A DNA stretch of 44,306 nucleotides, from NCBI GenBank assembly GCA_030696285.1, contig JAUYSQ010000116.1, positions 1 through 44,306 of the forward strand, written 5' to 3'. The position numbers and the translations under genes were made by a program. The stretch comes from Sulfuricurvum sp. (lineage in GTDB: Bacteria > Campylobacterota > Campylobacteria > Campylobacterales > Sulfurimonadaceae). Each line of letters begins with the position of its first letter. Position 1 is the stretch's first letter. The notes beneath the pieces were generated by a model. The model was not told where the DNA came from and made no database searches. It was given only the letters and a program-made list of their open reading frames with translations. This document shows, in pieces, positions 4,792 to 12,545 of this stretch.

Positions 4792-6075
4792 GTGCAGCTG
4801 ATGAAAGCTTTTTTCCTTGTCGGTGTGAGTGTGAGTGTGTATGCCCTCACTCTCGAAGAAGCGATTGATCGTACTTTAAAGACTCATCCCAATGGTCAAA
4901 TCGCATCGCTGCAGTATGAGAGTGCTGTGGAAGCCAGAAAGAGTTTGGATTCAGCCCTTTATCCTCGTATTGATGCCAATACCAACTATTTTCCGACTAA
5001 AACGTTTGTGATGCCTGTCAATGGAGCGTTTGCAACCAAGCAAGGAGATGCTTTTCATGCCGATGTGAGCGGATCGTATTCGCTGTGGGATTTTGGACGC
5101 TCCCGGGACAAGATCAATGCCTCTTTGAACTCACAAGAGGGGGCAGATTCAACCAAAAAACTAACCCGAAGCGAGTTAATACAACAGGTATGGTCGCAGT
5201 ATTACGGTGTCGCCTATGCGCACTCGCTGATCGATACAGCGGATGCTTCGGTGAAGTTTTATGAGGGCGAATACAGTCAAGCACGGAATATGCGTCTAAA
5301 CGGTCTCAAAACCGAAGCAGACGAATTGCGTTTTAAAGCATCGTTGATGGAGTCACAAGATCGTGCTGCAATTGCCCGAAGCGAATACGATAAAGTGCGT
5401 TTAGCTCTTGGGCTTTTGATCGGAAACGATGAGTTGATAAGTGTGAAAAAAGAAGAGTTAGATCAACGCTGTGAAGTGATAACGACTCAAAATAGTTCAT
5501 TAGAGGTGTTGCGCCAAGAGTTGAGGACGAATAATCCGCGCCTCAAAGTGTTACGCTCGTCTATTGATTCGGCTAAAGCGTTATCCAATGTCTCTAATAA
5601 TGAGAAATATGGGAATGTAGCGCTGATGGGTTCATATAGTTATGATAATTCTCTTTCGTCGTATGACAGCTATCAAGCGGGAATTACGGGGACGCTACCT
5701 CTGTACGATGGCGGAAAACTCTCTGCAGAAGCACAAAAAAGCCGTATTGCATACGCAATAGCCCAAAAAGAGTTCGAGAGTGCCGAGCGTGAACTGTGGC
5801 AAGAGATGTACGGTGCGTATCGTGATTTGATAGATGCTGATACGTCGATTCAGGCAAAAAAAGGGGTGATCGAAGCAACGGTAAAATCGTTGCACCTTAG
5901 TGAGGGACGATACAAACAGGGATTAGCAACGTACGTCGATGTGCTGGAAGCTCAAAGTACGTTAGAGAATGCTTATGCCGGTTTTTCTAAAGCGAAATAT
6001 CAAAAGATTCGTGCTTTTGCACAGATACAAAAATTGTTAAATTCTGCCCAAACTGGGCAAGCTTTAGTGCCATAG
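4792..6075 (+). CDS. TolC family outer membrane efflux protein
   Basis: 427 aa; LTLEEAIDRTLKTHP start, repeated coiled-coil segments, GLATYVDVLEAQSTLENA; GTG start with GGAGA at suitable spacing. Confidence 0.9.
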   Translation: MQLMKAFFLVGVSVSVYALTLEEAIDRTLKTHPNGQIASLQYESAVEARKSLDSALYPRIDANTNYFPTKTFVMPVNGAFATKQGDAFHADVSGSYSLWDFGRSRDKINASLNSQEGADSTKKLTRSELIQQVWSQYYGVAYAHSLIDTADASVKFYEGEYSQARNMRLNGLKTEADELRFKASLMESQDRAAIARSEYDKVRLALGLLIGNDELISVKKEELDQRCEVITTQNSSLEVLRQELRTNNPRLKVLRSSIDSAKALSNVSNNEKYGNVALMGSYSYDNSLSSYDSYQAGITGTLPLYDGGKLSAEAQKSRIAYAIAQKEFESAERELWQEMYGAYRDLIDADTSIQAKKGVIEATVKSLHLSEGRYKQGLATYVDVLEAQSTLENAYAGFSKAKYQKIRAFAQIQKLLNSAQTGQALVP

Positions 6076-6132
6076 CGGCGAGCGTAGAGAAAGGGACGTG
6101 TTCCTTTATCGTTTCAAAAAAATAAAAAGGGT

Positions 6133-7098
6133 GTGAAAATGACGTTTGCAAATAGCACAAAATGGATTATTGGTGGAGTTATTCTCATGGGTGCCGGAGC
6201 GTTGATCACCACCAAAATTTATCTACCAAAATTAACACCTGTCCCTATAATAGTAAAAATACCAAGTTCGATGAATACCATAAACGGTATTGGGACACTC
6301 GAAGCCAAAGAGGTAGTTGTCCTTGCTCCCAAAACAACGTCTAAAATTGAATTTCTTTATGCCGATGAGGGAGATGCCGTTCGTGAGGGGCAAGTGCTGG
6401 CAAAAATGGAAATTTCAGAGCTACGCGGAAATCTTCAAGAAAGTACTGCCAGCATCGCAAAAAGTCGTTCACAGTTGGTTTCACAGCGAGCAATTATTGA
6501 TGATTTGGAAGCCAAAAAAAGTTTAGCCGATATTACTCTCACGCGTTATAAAACACTTTTGGGTGGTGGATTTGTCACACAAGCTGAGTTTGATACCGCC
6601 CAAGCCGGCGCACGAAGTGCGACTGCACAGCTAACAAGCGCAAAAGAGAATCTCAAGCAATCCGAACATGAGATCGAAAAATCTCAAGCAGTACGAATGG
6701 GACAACAAGAAAAAATTGATGATCTTACGCTTCGCTCACCGTTTAATGGAATTGTCATCTCTCGCGAAGCAGAAGTGGGGAGTACTGTAGGGGGAGGGGT
6801 TTCAGTATTTCGACTTGCCGATCCGAAAATGGTATGGGTAAAAATCTATATTGATGAACGTCAAAGCGGAGCGTTAAAGGTAGGTCAGAATGCAACGGTA
6901 ATTCTCAGATCGTCACCCGATACAAAACTCTCAGGTAAAGTACGCAGAATTGGGATGGAAAGTGATCGAACGACTGAAGAACGGGTCGTTTATATCGTAT
7001 TGGACAGTGCTCCCCTATCGTTGCACTTTGGAGAACAAGCTGAGGCACAAATCACTGTTGAATCCAAAGCTAACACAGAAGTTAGACCTCAAATATGA
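6133..7098 (+). CDS. HlyD/RND-type periplasmic adaptor subunit
   Basis: N-terminal TM, lipoyl-like halves, LRSPFNGIVISREAEVGSTV motif. Confidence 0.9.
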   Translation: MKMTFANSTKWIIGGVILMGAGALITTKIYLPKLTPVPIIVKIPSSMNTINGIGTLEAKEVVVLAPKTTSKIEFLYADEGDAVREGQVLAKMEISELRGNLQESTASIAKSRSQLVSQRAIIDDLEAKKSLADITLTRYKTLLGGGFVTQAEFDTAQAGARSATAQLTSAKENLKQSEHEIEKSQAVRMGQQEKIDDLTLRSPFNGIVISREAEVGSTVGGGVSVFRLADPKMVWVKIYIDERQSGALKVGQNATVILRSSPDTKLSGKVRRIGMESDRTTEERVVYIVLDSAPLSLHFGEQAEAQITVESKANTEVRPQI

Positions 7099-8231
7099 TC
7101 AATCTCGCACAACGTGATATCGCCCATTCGCTGGGAAAATTTATCACCACCGCGCTGGGCGTCGGGATGCTTATTGGTGTTGTTCTCATTATGATCGGAG
7201 TCTATCGGGGGATGGTACACGATGCGATGATCGTCCCCCATGATATTTCCCCTGATTTGTGGGTGGTTCAAAAAGATACCTTGGGACCTTTTGCTGAAAG
7301 TTCCCGTCTGCACGAAGATCTAAAATACTCACTCAAAGGGTTTTTAGGGGTAAAAGAGGTACATCCCCTCACGTTTCAAAGCCTTCAAATCCCTCAAGGA
7401 AAAAAACCAATACGGGTATTTGCATTAGGATACGAAGCACTTAGCGGTTATGAACCTTTTACCCTTAGTGCGGGAAGAGAAATTCAAGTTCCTCATCAAG
7501 AAATCATCGTCGATACCAAAACAGGATTTAAAATCGGAGATCGTATTCCTTTGGGACGTGAACTCTATACCGTGGTAGGAATGACGCACAAAGCGGTTTC
7601 ATCGGGTGGTGATCCGATGGTCTATCTCGATCTCTCCGAAGCACAAGAACTCCAATTTTTATTTAGTAATGAACAAATACGCAATGACCGTACACGTGGA
7701 GGAAACAGTGCTTCAACCTCAACCGTCAATACCTTTGTTTTAAAACTAGAGGATGGATTTGACCCCACCGGTGTCGCAAAAGAACTGGAGCGATGGAAAC
7801 ATCAAGAGGTCTATACCGCCGATGAACAAGCAACGATTTTGACTAAAAATTTGATTGAGCGTTCCGCGAAACAAATCGGGATGTTTACGGTGATTTTGCT
7901 TATCGTCTCTTCGGTGATTATCTCTCTCATTATTTATACTATGACCATCGGTAAAATGAAAGAAATTGCTATTTTAAAACTTATTGGTGCACCCAATATC
8001 ACCATAACGAAAATGATCGGACAGCAGTCAGTATTGCTGGGGGTGCTTGCGTTTATCGGAGGCAATCTCTTCGCTCATGCAAGTGCCGGCATCTTCCCAA
8101 AAACGGTTATTCTTGTCCCAACGGATGCGATGAAGCTTCTGGTAATCGTCATTATTGTAAGTATACTTGCCTCTCTCTCAGGGATTCGCACTGCACTGAA
8201 GGTTGATCCTGCCAGTGCCATCGGAGGATAA
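7095..8231 (+). CDS. ABC transporter permease (FtsX/MacB/DevC-like)
   Basis: 378 aa; four predicted TMs around a periplasmic domain; MKEIAILKLIGAP motif; ATGA overlap with adaptor. Confidence 0.88.
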   Translation: MINLAQRDIAHSLGKFITTALGVGMLIGVVLIMIGVYRGMVHDAMIVPHDISPDLWVVQKDTLGPFAESSRLHEDLKYSLKGFLGVKEVHPLTFQSLQIPQGKKPIRVFALGYEALSGYEPFTLSAGREIQVPHQEIIVDTKTGFKIGDRIPLGRELYTVVGMTHKAVSSGGDPMVYLDLSEAQELQFLFSNEQIRNDRTRGGNSASTSTVNTFVLKLEDGFDPTGVAKELERWKHQEVYTADEQATILTKNLIERSAKQIGMFTVILLIVSSVIISLIIYTMTIGKMKEIAILKLIGAPNITITKMIGQQSVLLGVLAFIGGNLFAHASAGIFPKTVILVPTDAMKLLVIVIIVSILASLSGIRTALKVDPASAIGG

Positions 8232-8936
8232 ATGAGACACCCTATAATAGCCATGAGCGGTATTTCAAAAACGTATGGTGCGGGCGATAGTGCCGTCATG
8301 GCAATCAAAGAAGCGACATTTGAGATTTTTTCAGGTGAAACGGTTGCCCTTTTAGGTCCAAGCGGTTCGGGAAAAACGACGCTCATTACGATGGTGGGGT
8401 GTATCACCGAACCTACGACGGGTAAACTCATATTGAATGGAGAGCTGGTTTACGATGAGAAGTGGTGCATCAAAGATACCCGTAAGCTCCGTCGGGAAAA
8501 TATAGGGTTTATTTTTCAATCGCATAACCTCATTCCTTTTTTAAATGTAAAGGAAAATGTGACACTGGTACCACTATTAAATGGAATTTCAGACAAAGAA
8601 GCTGACAACCGTGCCCGGGATTTACTAGAGTATTTAGGGGTTGGGGATAAGCTCACTAAAATGCCCTCACAACTCTCAGGAGGTCAGAGTCAGAGAGTTG
8701 CCATAGCGCGCTCATTGGCGAATAATCCAAAAATAATTTTGGCGGATGAACCCACTGCAGCTTTAGATGCCGAACGGGCTCTTTCGGTTATGCAATTGCT
8801 TAAAAAACTTTCACTTGAACAAGAAGTAGCGATTGTTGTCGTAACCCATGATGAGCGGATGCTACCGCTGTTTGATCGGATTTTACGGGTTGAAGACGGG
8901 TATGTGAGAGAAGACTTTTTAAGAAGAGAAGGATAA
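8232..8936 (+). CDS. ABC transporter ATP-binding protein (LolD/MacB-like)
   Basis: Walker A GPSGSGKTT, signature LSGGQSQRVAIARSL, Walker B IILADEPTAALD. Confidence 0.95.
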   Translation: MRHPIIAMSGISKTYGAGDSAVMAIKEATFEIFSGETVALLGPSGSGKTTLITMVGCITEPTTGKLILNGELVYDEKWCIKDTRKLRRENIGFIFQSHNLIPFLNVKENVTLVPLLNGISDKEADNRARDLLEYLGVGDKLTKMPSQLSGGQSQRVAIARSLANNPKIILADEPTAALDAERALSVMQLLKKLSLEQEVAIVVVTHDERMLPLFDRILRVEDGYVREDFLRREG

Positions 8937-9020
8937 TCTAAAATGTGCTAGTATAAAAAAAGTAAATAAAATATTCATGATTTTTTAGAGTGGGTTATTT
9001 ATCCAAAGGTAAATGAAATA

Positions 9021-10004
9021 ATGATTCGAAAAATAACTGGATTCGTTGCCCTATCTGTCATTTTACAAGCAGATCCGTATATTTTAGGGCAGGGTGTATA
9101 TATTGATAAGATGTTAACCGTAGGTGGATACTTTTCTACAGAATTTGAGTCAAAAGAGAGTCAAGAAACCTTTAGAATTGATGACGTGGCCATTATGGCA
9201 TACGGTGAACTTAATCCTACCTTTTCGTATTTGGCAGAACTTGAGGCTATCGGGTTTTATTCTAAGAACTTTTCCACTGGAAATGAAAGTGGAAGTCAAA
9301 AATTTCATGTAGAACGTTTTTATGGCGATATGTGGCTCATGGATGCGTTTAATATTCGTTTTGGGAAACAGATTACCCCGATAGGGTATTGGAACACGGA
9401 ACCGATTAATGTTTTGCGTGATACTACTTCCAATCCCCTTTACAGCAAACTTCTTTTTCCTAAGTTTTTAACAGGTATTGATATTAATGGCTATATTTTA
9501 CAGACAGAGGGGATGCACTACCATTTGTTTGGGCAAAAAAATCAGGATTTAGACGAAGAGTATATTAATATTCCGAATGAGCATTTCTTTGGATTATCAA
9601 TTGAAAATGAGTTTTCATCTGAGTGGAATGGGGGAGGAAGTGTCGGCGAATATATTACGCTAACGGATCAACGGACCCGTTTCGCTCAAGCAAATGTTAA
9701 ATATGATGATACACAATGGCAAATTCTTGCTGAGGGAATGATTACTGACAGTAAATATAGCAATCAAGAGAGTGCTCATGCTGTTTCCGGATATGTGCAA
9801 GGAATGTATCGCTATACGCTTAAGCATGCATTTGTAGGACGTTATGAATATTTTAATGATCATTATTCGAAGTATGAAGACACTATCGGTACTTTCGGAT
9901 ACAGTTATCGTCCTTTGTATCCTGTTTCGTTAAAAGGGGAGTATCAGTGGCATTCACTTAGCGATGAAAACCGCTTTTTATTTTCCTTTTCGGTATTGTT
10001 TTGA
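9021..10004 (+). CDS. Porin-like outer membrane beta-barrel protein
   Basis: 327 aa; N-terminal signal-like segment, alternating amphipathic strands, C-terminal aromatic residue (FSVLF*). Confidence 0.75.
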   Translation: MIRKITGFVALSVILQADPYILGQGVYIDKMLTVGGYFSTEFESKESQETFRIDDVAIMAYGELNPTFSYLAELEAIGFYSKNFSTGNESGSQKFHVERFYGDMWLMDAFNIRFGKQITPIGYWNTEPINVLRDTTSNPLYSKLLFPKFLTGIDINGYILQTEGMHYHLFGQKNQDLDEEYINIPNEHFFGLSIENEFSSEWNGGGSVGEYITLTDQRTRFAQANVKYDDTQWQILAEGMITDSKYSNQESAHAVSGYVQGMYRYTLKHAFVGRYEYFNDHYSKYEDTIGTFGYSYRPLYPVSLKGEYQWHSLSDENRFLFSFSVLF

Positions 10005-10405
10005 TGAAATGGCTAATTTTGTTTTCTGGGCTTTGGCTTATGGCTTCGGGGGCAGAATACAGCGTGATCGTATCCAAAAAAGTTTCTTTTTCGGCGCTAA
10101 CCTCTCAACAAATACGCGATATATTCTTACAAAAACGTCATATGATAGGGGATCAAAAAATAATTCCTATCAATTTATTAGGACAGGATGAAGCACGGAG
10201 TGCATTTGAATCTACAATATTAAAGATGGATCGAGATAGGCTGAATGTATACTGGGTCAAACAACATTTTCAAGGGGTTGTTCCTCCACTAACGCAGCCC
10301 TCTTTTGAATCGATCAAAGTTTTTGTCCAAAACGTAGAAGGGTCTATGGGATATGTACCATCCATCCTTGTTGATAATAGCGTGAAGGTTGTCTATGAGT
10401 TTTAA
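10004..10405 (+). CDS. Small PstS-like periplasmic substrate-binding protein
   Basis: Signal peptide; LTSQQIRDIFLQKRHMIGDQKIIPINLLGQDEARSAFESTIL and EGSMGYVPS motifs; TGATG overlap with preceding gene. Confidence 0.8.
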   Translation: MKWLILFSGLWLMASGAEYSVIVSKKVSFSALTSQQIRDIFLQKRHMIGDQKIIPINLLGQDEARSAFESTILKMDRDRLNVYWVKQHFQGVVPPLTQPSFESIKVFVQNVEGSMGYVPSILVDNSVKVVYEF

Positions 10406-11906
10406 ACTAAAAACAATTTTACTTTTTTTAGGGATCAGCTTAATTCCTTATGCCCTGACAATGTTGTTATTAGGTAACTCATTCCGACACGAGCAATATA
10501 ATGCGATTACTCAGGAAATGAATACCCAGCTAAGGCTGACGGCGGAGCGGATTAATCAACACCTTTCAACGCTCCGAAGCGATATGTCGTTTATTGCCAA
10601 ATCCGATATGATGAATGACATCTATACGAAAGATTTAGATCGTCGAATCAGTAATATGCTGTTGGCAAAGAAAAATGATATGAAAATGGAAGGGGATTTT
10701 TATCTCGTTAATGAAGAAAATACAATTATTGCTTCAAGCGATTTTAGTTCTATTGCAAAAAAAGAGACGAGGAAACCGTTCTTTATCGTCCCTATAGTAT
10801 CGAGTTTTAATCAACAGCAGATCGGTAAATTAATCGTTATTTACTCTCTGAAAAATTTCAAACCATTTTTTAGCAACTCTTTGCAGCGTCACTATTATAT
10901 TTCTCATCGTGATGGAACCATAAGCCTGCGTCCAAGCGTATTTGAGGAATCGCTGAAAGTATCCAGATCTCTTGCTGTTAAGCCTGATTTGAAACTTATT
11001 TTAGAAGAAGATAAAGCCTTTGCCTATCGTTTGTTATATAAATATGAGCAGTGGTTTATCCTCTTGTTGATCGCGGGGGCATTCTTTATTTCTGCAGCAG
11101 CGTATTATGTGGCTACAGAGCTTATTCGCCCCGTAATCACCCTTTCAGATACCGCTAAACAAATTACGCGAACTCAAGATTATACACAGCAAGTCGCCAT
11201 TGATCGTGATGATGAAATAGGACAACTTTCTGATGCGTTCAATACAATGATTAGTGGAATCGGGCATGCGCTAGGAGAGATCACGGCACTCAACAAAGAG
11301 ATTGAGGATACACAGCGTGAAGTTGTTTTTACGATGGGTGCGATCGGGGAAAGTCGTTCAAAAGAGACGGGAAATCATGTTAAACGGGTGGCTGAATATA
11401 CAAAATTGCTTGCATTGCATTATGGCCTTAATGAAAATGAAGCCGAAATGCTCAAGCAAGCTTCCCCGATGCACGATATCGGGAAAGTCGCGATTCCCGA
11501 TGCCGTTCTCAATAAGCCGGGACGCTTTGATGAAGAAGAGCGTCGTATAATGGATACTCATGCGGCACTGGGATACGAGATGCTCAAATATTCCAATAAA
11601 TCACTCCTTATGATGGCAGCTACGGTTGCGTATGAACACCACGAGAAATGGGACGGCAGCGGCTATCCAAGAGGCTTAAGTGGTGAAAATATTCATATCT
11701 ATGGGCGTATTACGGCGTTGGCAGATGTTTTTGATGCTTTGGGAAGTGATCGGGTTTATAAAAAAGCATGGAATGATGAATCAATTTTCACATTGTTTAG
11801 AGAAGAGAGGGGAAAACATTTTGATCCTGCCCTTATCGATATCTTTTTTGACCATTTGAATGATTTTTTGGCGATACGCAATCAATTAAAGGATGTAGAA
11901 GTATGA
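10395..11906 (+). CDS. Membrane sensor with HAMP and HD-GYP (c-di-GMP phosphodiesterase) domains
   Basis: Two TMs flanking an extracytoplasmic region, HAMP, MHDIGKVAIPD and HHEKWDGSGYPRGLSG motifs. Confidence 0.93.
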   Translation: MSFKLKTILLFLGISLIPYALTMLLLGNSFRHEQYNAITQEMNTQLRLTAERINQHLSTLRSDMSFIAKSDMMNDIYTKDLDRRISNMLLAKKNDMKMEGDFYLVNEENTIIASSDFSSIAKKETRKPFFIVPIVSSFNQQQIGKLIVIYSLKNFKPFFSNSLQRHYYISHRDGTISLRPSVFEESLKVSRSLAVKPDLKLILEEDKAFAYRLLYKYEQWFILLLIAGAFFISAAAYYVATELIRPVITLSDTAKQITRTQDYTQQVAIDRDDEIGQLSDAFNTMISGIGHALGEITALNKEIEDTQREVVFTMGAIGESRSKETGNHVKRVAEYTKLLALHYGLNENEAEMLKQASPMHDIGKVAIPDAVLNKPGRFDEEERRIMDTHAALGYEMLKYSNKSLLMMAATVAYEHHEKWDGSGYPRGLSGENIHIYGRITALADVFDALGSDRVYKKAWNDESIFTLFREERGKHFDPALIDIFFDHLNDFLAIRNQLKDVEV

Positions 11907-12502
11907 GTGAACGTTTTAATAGTGCAGCAGCAGGATGGGACAAAGGGGATATGCGCCAAAACATTGCAGACGCAGTTTTTCAAACCATTGTGAGTCGAAT
12001 AGCTTTAACCAATAATATGAAAATTATGGATTTCGGGGCAGGGACGGGACTTTTGAGTTTTAAAATTGCCCCAATGGTAGGCTCGGTCGTCGGCGTGGAT
12101 CTTTCTGAAAAAATGCTCGAACAGCTCGAAGCAAAAAATACAGATGAGTTGAGCGTTGAAGCACTCTATCATGATATCCTTGCCTCTTCATTAGGGTGTG
12201 AATTTAATGGGATTGTAAGTTCGATGGCGATGCATCATGTTGAGGATACGGCGCATTTGTTTCGTGAGTTTTATGCTCATTTAAAAAAAGACGGTTTTAT
12301 CGCTATTGCCGATTTGGAAGAGGAAGACGGATCGTTTCATACACATGGAAATGAGGGTGTTTACCATTTCGGATTTAATCGTGAGCAATTACGAAACACC
12401 ATCGAAAATGCCGGTTTCAAAAACGTCCGTTTTCATGAGGTGTATCGAGTCGAAAAAGAGAATGGAAATTATCCTATTTTCGTTGTTACTGCGATGAAAT
12501 AA
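11903..12502 (+). CDS. Class I SAM-dependent methyltransferase
   Basis: MDFGAGTGLLSFKIAPMVGSVVGVDLS motif I; ATGA overlap with HD-GYP gene. Confidence 0.88.
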   Translation: MSERFNSAAAGWDKGDMRQNIADAVFQTIVSRIALTNNMKIMDFGAGTGLLSFKIAPMVGSVVGVDLSEKMLEQLEAKNTDELSVEALYHDILASSLGCEFNGIVSSMAMHHVEDTAHLFREFYAHLKKDGFIAIADLEEEDGSFHTHGNEGVYHFGFNREQLRNTIENAGFKNVRFHEVYRVEKENGNYPIFVVTAMK

Positions 12503-12545
12503 AATGGCAAAATGCCACATATTTATCCTCATTTGAAAAGTTGGC

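Follow-up and report, generated by a model that had tools for sequence, protein, structure and literature searches.

A porin, half-PstS and HD-GYP transducer cassette in Sulfuricurvum: a candidate envelope-to-c-di-GMP pathway

Results

Gene layout and junctions

We analyzed a 44,306-nucleotide stretch of Sulfuricurvum sp. DNA (contig JAUYSQ010000116.1 of assembly GCA_030696285.1; hereafter the window), in which a porin gene, a gene for a small PstS-like protein, a transducer gene and a methyltransferase gene follow one another (Table 1). A preliminary description had joined the four genes by TGATG or ATGA-type overlaps. Its coordinates and strand hold, as do a TGATG between the porin and half-PstS genes (stop 10002-10004, start 10004) and an ATGA between the transducer and methyltransferase genes (11903-11906); the middle junction is instead an 11-nt overlap, ATGAGTTTTAA, which reads ...YEF-stop in the frame of half-PstS and MSFK... 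in that of the transducer. Essentially every Sulfuricurvum locus shows this spacing at the first two junctions, and cyclase-type relatives share the 11-nt overlap as well, so that both junctions reflect more than chance. Among the genomes compared, the ATGA junction was seen only in that of the window. Directly upstream of the cassette lies a TolC-HlyD-FtsX-ABC export operon (4792-8936), which in the close relative G007 runs straight into the methyltransferase gene. A short terminator-like hairpin (both strands) follows the methyltransferase stop codon at 12504-12518.

Table 1. Features of the locus, with positions in the window or, for protein domains, in residues
Feature	Position	Strand	Basis or remark
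Outer-membrane beta-barrel porin, 327 aa	9021..10004	+	ORF, alignment, Pfam of relatives, co-occurrence
Half-PstS protein, 133 aa	10004..10405	+	Family profile, AlphaFold model, Foldseek
11-nt half-PstS/transducer overlap, ATGAGTTTTAA	10395..10405	+	Kept in HD-GYP and cyclase types
dCache-HAMP-HD-GYP transducer, 503 aa	10395..11906	+	Pfam, model, Foldseek, PmGH alignment
Transducer domains	TM; dCache about 31-219; TM; HAMP 240-286; HD-GYP about 301-500 (residues)		
Class I SAM-dependent methyltransferase, 199 aa	11903..12502	+	Resident of ABC-methyltransferase-nadK locus, outside the cassette
Inserted cassette, extent	8937..11902	+	Junction alignment, window vs locus L069 of G007

The porin and its relatives

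The porin ends in SFSVLF. Searching Pfam with its family returned BBP2 for 5 of 14 members and Porin_O_P for 3 of 14, in keeping with the outer-membrane porin-like barrel proposed before; the window's own member matched only DUF481 (E 0.003). No YfiB/OmpA family was found in this Pfam search. Scanning 84,980 species genomes with the half-PstS alignment yielded 67 loci from named genomes, and a porin relative was encoded in 65 of these. The other two were a locus cut at the contig start and a Neptunomonas locus with a different porin-like barrel.

The small binding protein is half of a PstS

Single-sequence searches of Pfam, NCBIfam and the PDB returned nothing useful for the small protein described as PstS-like, nor was anything learned from a single-sequence hhalign comparison with the PstS proteins of the same genome. 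The family profile matched PDB PstS proteins (E 4e-7 to 1e-6), and the AlphaFold model (pLDDT 93) superposed on PstS domain II over 119-126 columns in the best Foldseek matches (TMq 0.69-0.70, E 1e-8). The PstS-like fold was thus borne out, but for half a PstS: a signal-peptide-like N-terminus is followed by a single domain equivalent to domain II, and the two-lobed fold of PstS is absent. The SGT phosphate motif (positions 62-64) and an arginine at the phosphate-Arg position (58) were each found in 0 of 52 family members. With only domain II present and SGT missing throughout the family, phosphate sensing is not supported, and phosphate or arsenate can no longer be taken as the obvious ligand. 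A protein lacking both the second Venus-flytrap lobe and the phosphate motif may bind no solute.

That prospect makes an adaptor relay like YfiBNR the main rival to the reading we prefer, set out in the Discussion. Half-PstS would then be a nutrient-free periplasmic adaptor between porin and dCache, reporting porin occupancy or envelope stress. The three-compartment layout matches that of YfiB, YfiR and YfiN (PMC4655355), the same porin family recurs at nearly every locus, and 51 of 52 members keep W...H..G..PP, a signature within a stretch inserted relative to the aligned PDB PstS homologues, yet domain I and the SGT site are gone. Two residues at the old ligand loop, N57 (kept in 50/52) and R65 (51/52), would however also fit a modified binding site, and no homology to YfiR or YfiB was found: the top Foldseek matches of the half-PstS model are PstS, with no YfiR among the best 50. 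We regard this relay as unlikely, though a serious contender.

As had been stated before, the protein has no ABC transporter partner. No pstCAB genes lie beside it, its partners being the porin and the transducer; the genome's true PstS is encoded on contig C36 next to PhoU/PhoB/PhoR-like genes. Elsewhere in the same genome (L168 4726-7094, G000:C238), the gene for a whole PstS-like protein (278 aa) abuts and precedes that for a membrane PAS-GGDEF protein, making a second binding-protein/c-di-GMP pair.

The transducer

The third gene had been read as a membrane HAMP-HD-GYP protein with an extracytoplasmic domain, and our analysis agrees. The periplasmic model is a double Cache between two TM helices, closest to the KinD sensor domain (Foldseek, TMt 0.65); the Pfam dCache_1 match was partial and below its cut-off. 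The model came from a mixed-output alignment and its HD-GYP half was poor (pLDDT about 45), so we used only the sensor half and took the HD-GYP assignment from sequence. The HD-GYP domain aligned with PmGH at E 1e-61, with the eight metal ligands, K225, D308, the GYP motif, R314 and K317 all kept. The position of PmGH D183 is Ser in the window's transducer and in all 17 relatives checked. A D183A change inactivates PmGH and is as damaging as changes to metal ligands (PMC4159591), whereas D183 is not known as a family-wide requirement. From these residues, the transducer likely hydrolyses c-di-GMP, although the Ser at the D183 position leaves this short of certain.

The sensor family also occurs without a porin or half-PstS gene nearby in several genomes (L171-L177), including in sensor kinases, so the dCache may sense alone. 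A second rival explanation builds on these kinases and on the KinD-type fold: the dCache would bind a small molecule directly, the porin would supply it and half-PstS would be a minor accessory. Yet half-PstS adjoins every HD-GYP-type transducer found in the genus, with a fixed 11-nt overlap, and we consider direct sensing quite improbable.

Three genes form one unit

We examined co-occurrence in 36 other genomes of the genus. A close half-PstS copy (60-71% identity) was present in 23 of the 36, and the same 23 carried the porin. The transducer was found in 22 of those 23; in the remaining genome, G033, the contig ends inside the half-PstS gene. The other 13 of the 36 had no close copy of porin, half-PstS or transducer. 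Counting the window's genome, 24 genomes had the cassette. The order porin, half-PstS, transducer and the overlaps were constant in all 22 Sulfuricurvum neighbourhoods fetched, while flanking genes varied. Pairwise distances of porin, half-PstS and sensor correlated at 0.91-0.95 (Mantel test), a value to which organism phylogeny contributes. Porin, half-PstS and transducer are thus one conserved, movable unit, with neither the absence of linkage nor the pst linkage that would have spoken against the preliminary description. Co-inheritance of the three genes may also have causes other than contact between their products.

No mobile element was found; the search for repeats that would mark one covered the cassette's left edge and gave nothing convincing. 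The window's own genome holds a second porin/half-PstS cassette (L058 1955-5071, G000:C80), in which a histidine kinase replaces the HD-GYP protein.

The methyltransferase is a neighbour

The fourth gene had been included as a possible member of the pathway. In G007 (L069), the genes run FtsX-ABC-methyltransferase-nadK-recN, uninterrupted by a cassette; the junction alignment places the window's cassette between the ABC-ATPase stop and the methyltransferase start. The G007 cassette lies on a different contig from its ABC-methyltransferase locus. Between the two genomes, identity is 75-94% for the flanking proteins (ABC 83, methyltransferase 89, nadK 94) and just 66-77% for those of the cassette. 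With the G007 site empty and the flanks more alike than the cassettes, the window's cassette is not the positional counterpart of that in G007; its transfer or relocation would be the simplest reading of these alignments. Methyltransferase orthologues occurred in 29 of the 36 same-genus genomes, and none adjoined a cassette. The methyltransferase is therefore a mere neighbour, a resident of the ABC-methyltransferase-nadK locus and not a cassette member. Of the operon described before as a four-gene pathway, the linkage of porin, half-PstS and transducer stands; the methyltransferase falls away by the empty-site comparison. At loci L074-L077 and L079, from several Sulfuricurvum genomes, a nifE-like nitrogenase cofactor gene, as read from the translated sequence, lies within about 1.5 kb of the methyltransferase orthologue.

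These data also bear on a four-gene phosphate or oxyanion pathway that takes in the methyltransferase. The PstS-domain homology, the Porin_O_P matches of some porin relatives and the ATGA junction in the window all fit such a pathway. Against it stand the methyltransferase's residence in a locus of its own, never beside a cassette elsewhere, the missing SGT motif and phosphate arginine, and the true PstS encoded with PhoU-like and two-component genes at another site. We think this pathway very improbable indeed.

One input, exchanged outputs

The 67 loci differed in output. A fused HD-GYP was found at 25, a REC-HD-GYP protein plus a separate dCache/HAMP histidine kinase at 23, a histidine kinase without HD-GYP (alone or with a REC-only protein) at seven and a class III nucleotide cyclase at six; the remainder were contig-end cuts or had differing outputs. 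Pfam Guanylate_cyc supported the cyclase call at 6e-27 or better in all five proteins tested, and the sixth was called by motif. The Neptunomonas locus (L166) pairs half-PstS and its other porin-like barrel with a dCache_3-GGDEF protein. Both the fused and the kinase/REC-HD-GYP architectures end in HD-GYP, which supports c-di-GMP breakdown as a frequent target; given the cyclases, it is not the sole one.

When the five output labels were mapped onto a porin plus half-PstS tree, 9 changes were required, compared with a mean of 24.2 after shuffling, and the HD-GYP group was not one clade. Compared with Sulfurimonas-side HD-GYP types, the window's transducer shares 38-44% identity in the sensor and 79-84% in the output domain; with cyclase types, it shares 39-46% and about 16-21% (unrelated), respectively. 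The boundary between the two regimes is sharp near residue 300. The input (porin, half-PstS, dCache and HAMP) is thus inherited together, and the output enzyme has been swapped between lineages. We considered whether the 79-84% HD-GYP identity indicates recent transfer between cassettes and dropped the idea: HD-GYP domains 74-81% identical occur on other proteins in cassette-free genomes, so HD-GYP is a general plug-in output. In G007 (L170 385-3721, G007:C15), a dCache-HAMP sensor 69% identical to that of the window continues into fused PAS and CheA-like HATPase domains, and a REC protein follows; upstream, this locus ends at the contig edge.

The exchange of outputs allows a further, tentative reading in which the cassette would be a plug-and-play receptor. 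A half-PstS that binds no ligand would couple the porin to dCache-HAMP and read the state of the porin, the outputs being, depending on the lineage, c-di-GMP breakdown, nucleotide cyclization or a phosphorelay. We hold this to be rather unlikely.

Discussion

Because the three genes are one conserved unit, the locus is best read as an envelope-to-c-di-GMP pathway. We propose, with a probability of roughly 0.6, an envelope cassette in which the porin-coupled half-PstS acts on the dCache-HAMP transducer and alters c-di-GMP hydrolysis; the contacts, the direction of control and the existence of a ligand are what we infer. The porin would admit a small solute to the periplasm or report the state of the outer membrane. 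Secreted half-PstS would take up that solute or state and dock on the dCache of the inner-membrane transducer, and HAMP would relay the signal to HD-GYP, changing c-di-GMP hydrolysis.

If the proposal is right, the relatives offer a natural series, with one input and several outputs, for studying how one signal in the periplasm is connected with c-di-GMP, cyclic nucleotides or a phosphorelay. It would also give a possible role to small PstS-like genes without an adjoining transporter. We found no description of a porin and half-PstS head with exchangeable outputs in the literature searched, which left out most subscription journals.

Activation of receptors by binding proteins is an established mechanism that extends to c-di-GMP enzymes (PMC9602780). 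In the NspS-MbaA system of Vibrio cholerae and Sinorhizobium, a periplasmic polyamine-binding protein controls an inner-membrane c-di-GMP enzyme (PMC8967002, PMC9993111). Like the cassette, it sets a gene for a binding-protein fold beside one for a membrane c-di-GMP enzyme, outside a transporter. It differs in that its binding protein is complete and its enzyme bifunctional, whereas the cassette has half a PstS and a dedicated porin, and its HD-GYP is swapped for cyclases or kinases in relatives. The BctC-type protein of Bordetella pertussis (PMC9602780) likewise stimulates a membrane receptor, a sensor kinase, but belongs to the TctC family, binds citrate and is part of a transporter.

With YfiBNR of Pseudomonas aeruginosa, the cassette shares an outer-membrane protein, a small periplasmic protein and an inner-membrane HAMP c-di-GMP enzyme. 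By contrast, YfiB is a lipoprotein, YfiR does not have the PstS fold and YfiN is a diguanylate cyclase; HAMP is the one homologous part that we found. Compared with the PstS of PstSCAB, half-PstS has the domain II fold in common and lacks domain I, the SGT motif and transporter genes. Finally, the transducer and PmGH of Persephonella marina (4MCW) have in common the HD-GYP domain with its eight metal ligands and GYP motif, but the transducer carries Ser in place of D183 and places this domain behind a membrane dCache-HAMP sensor.
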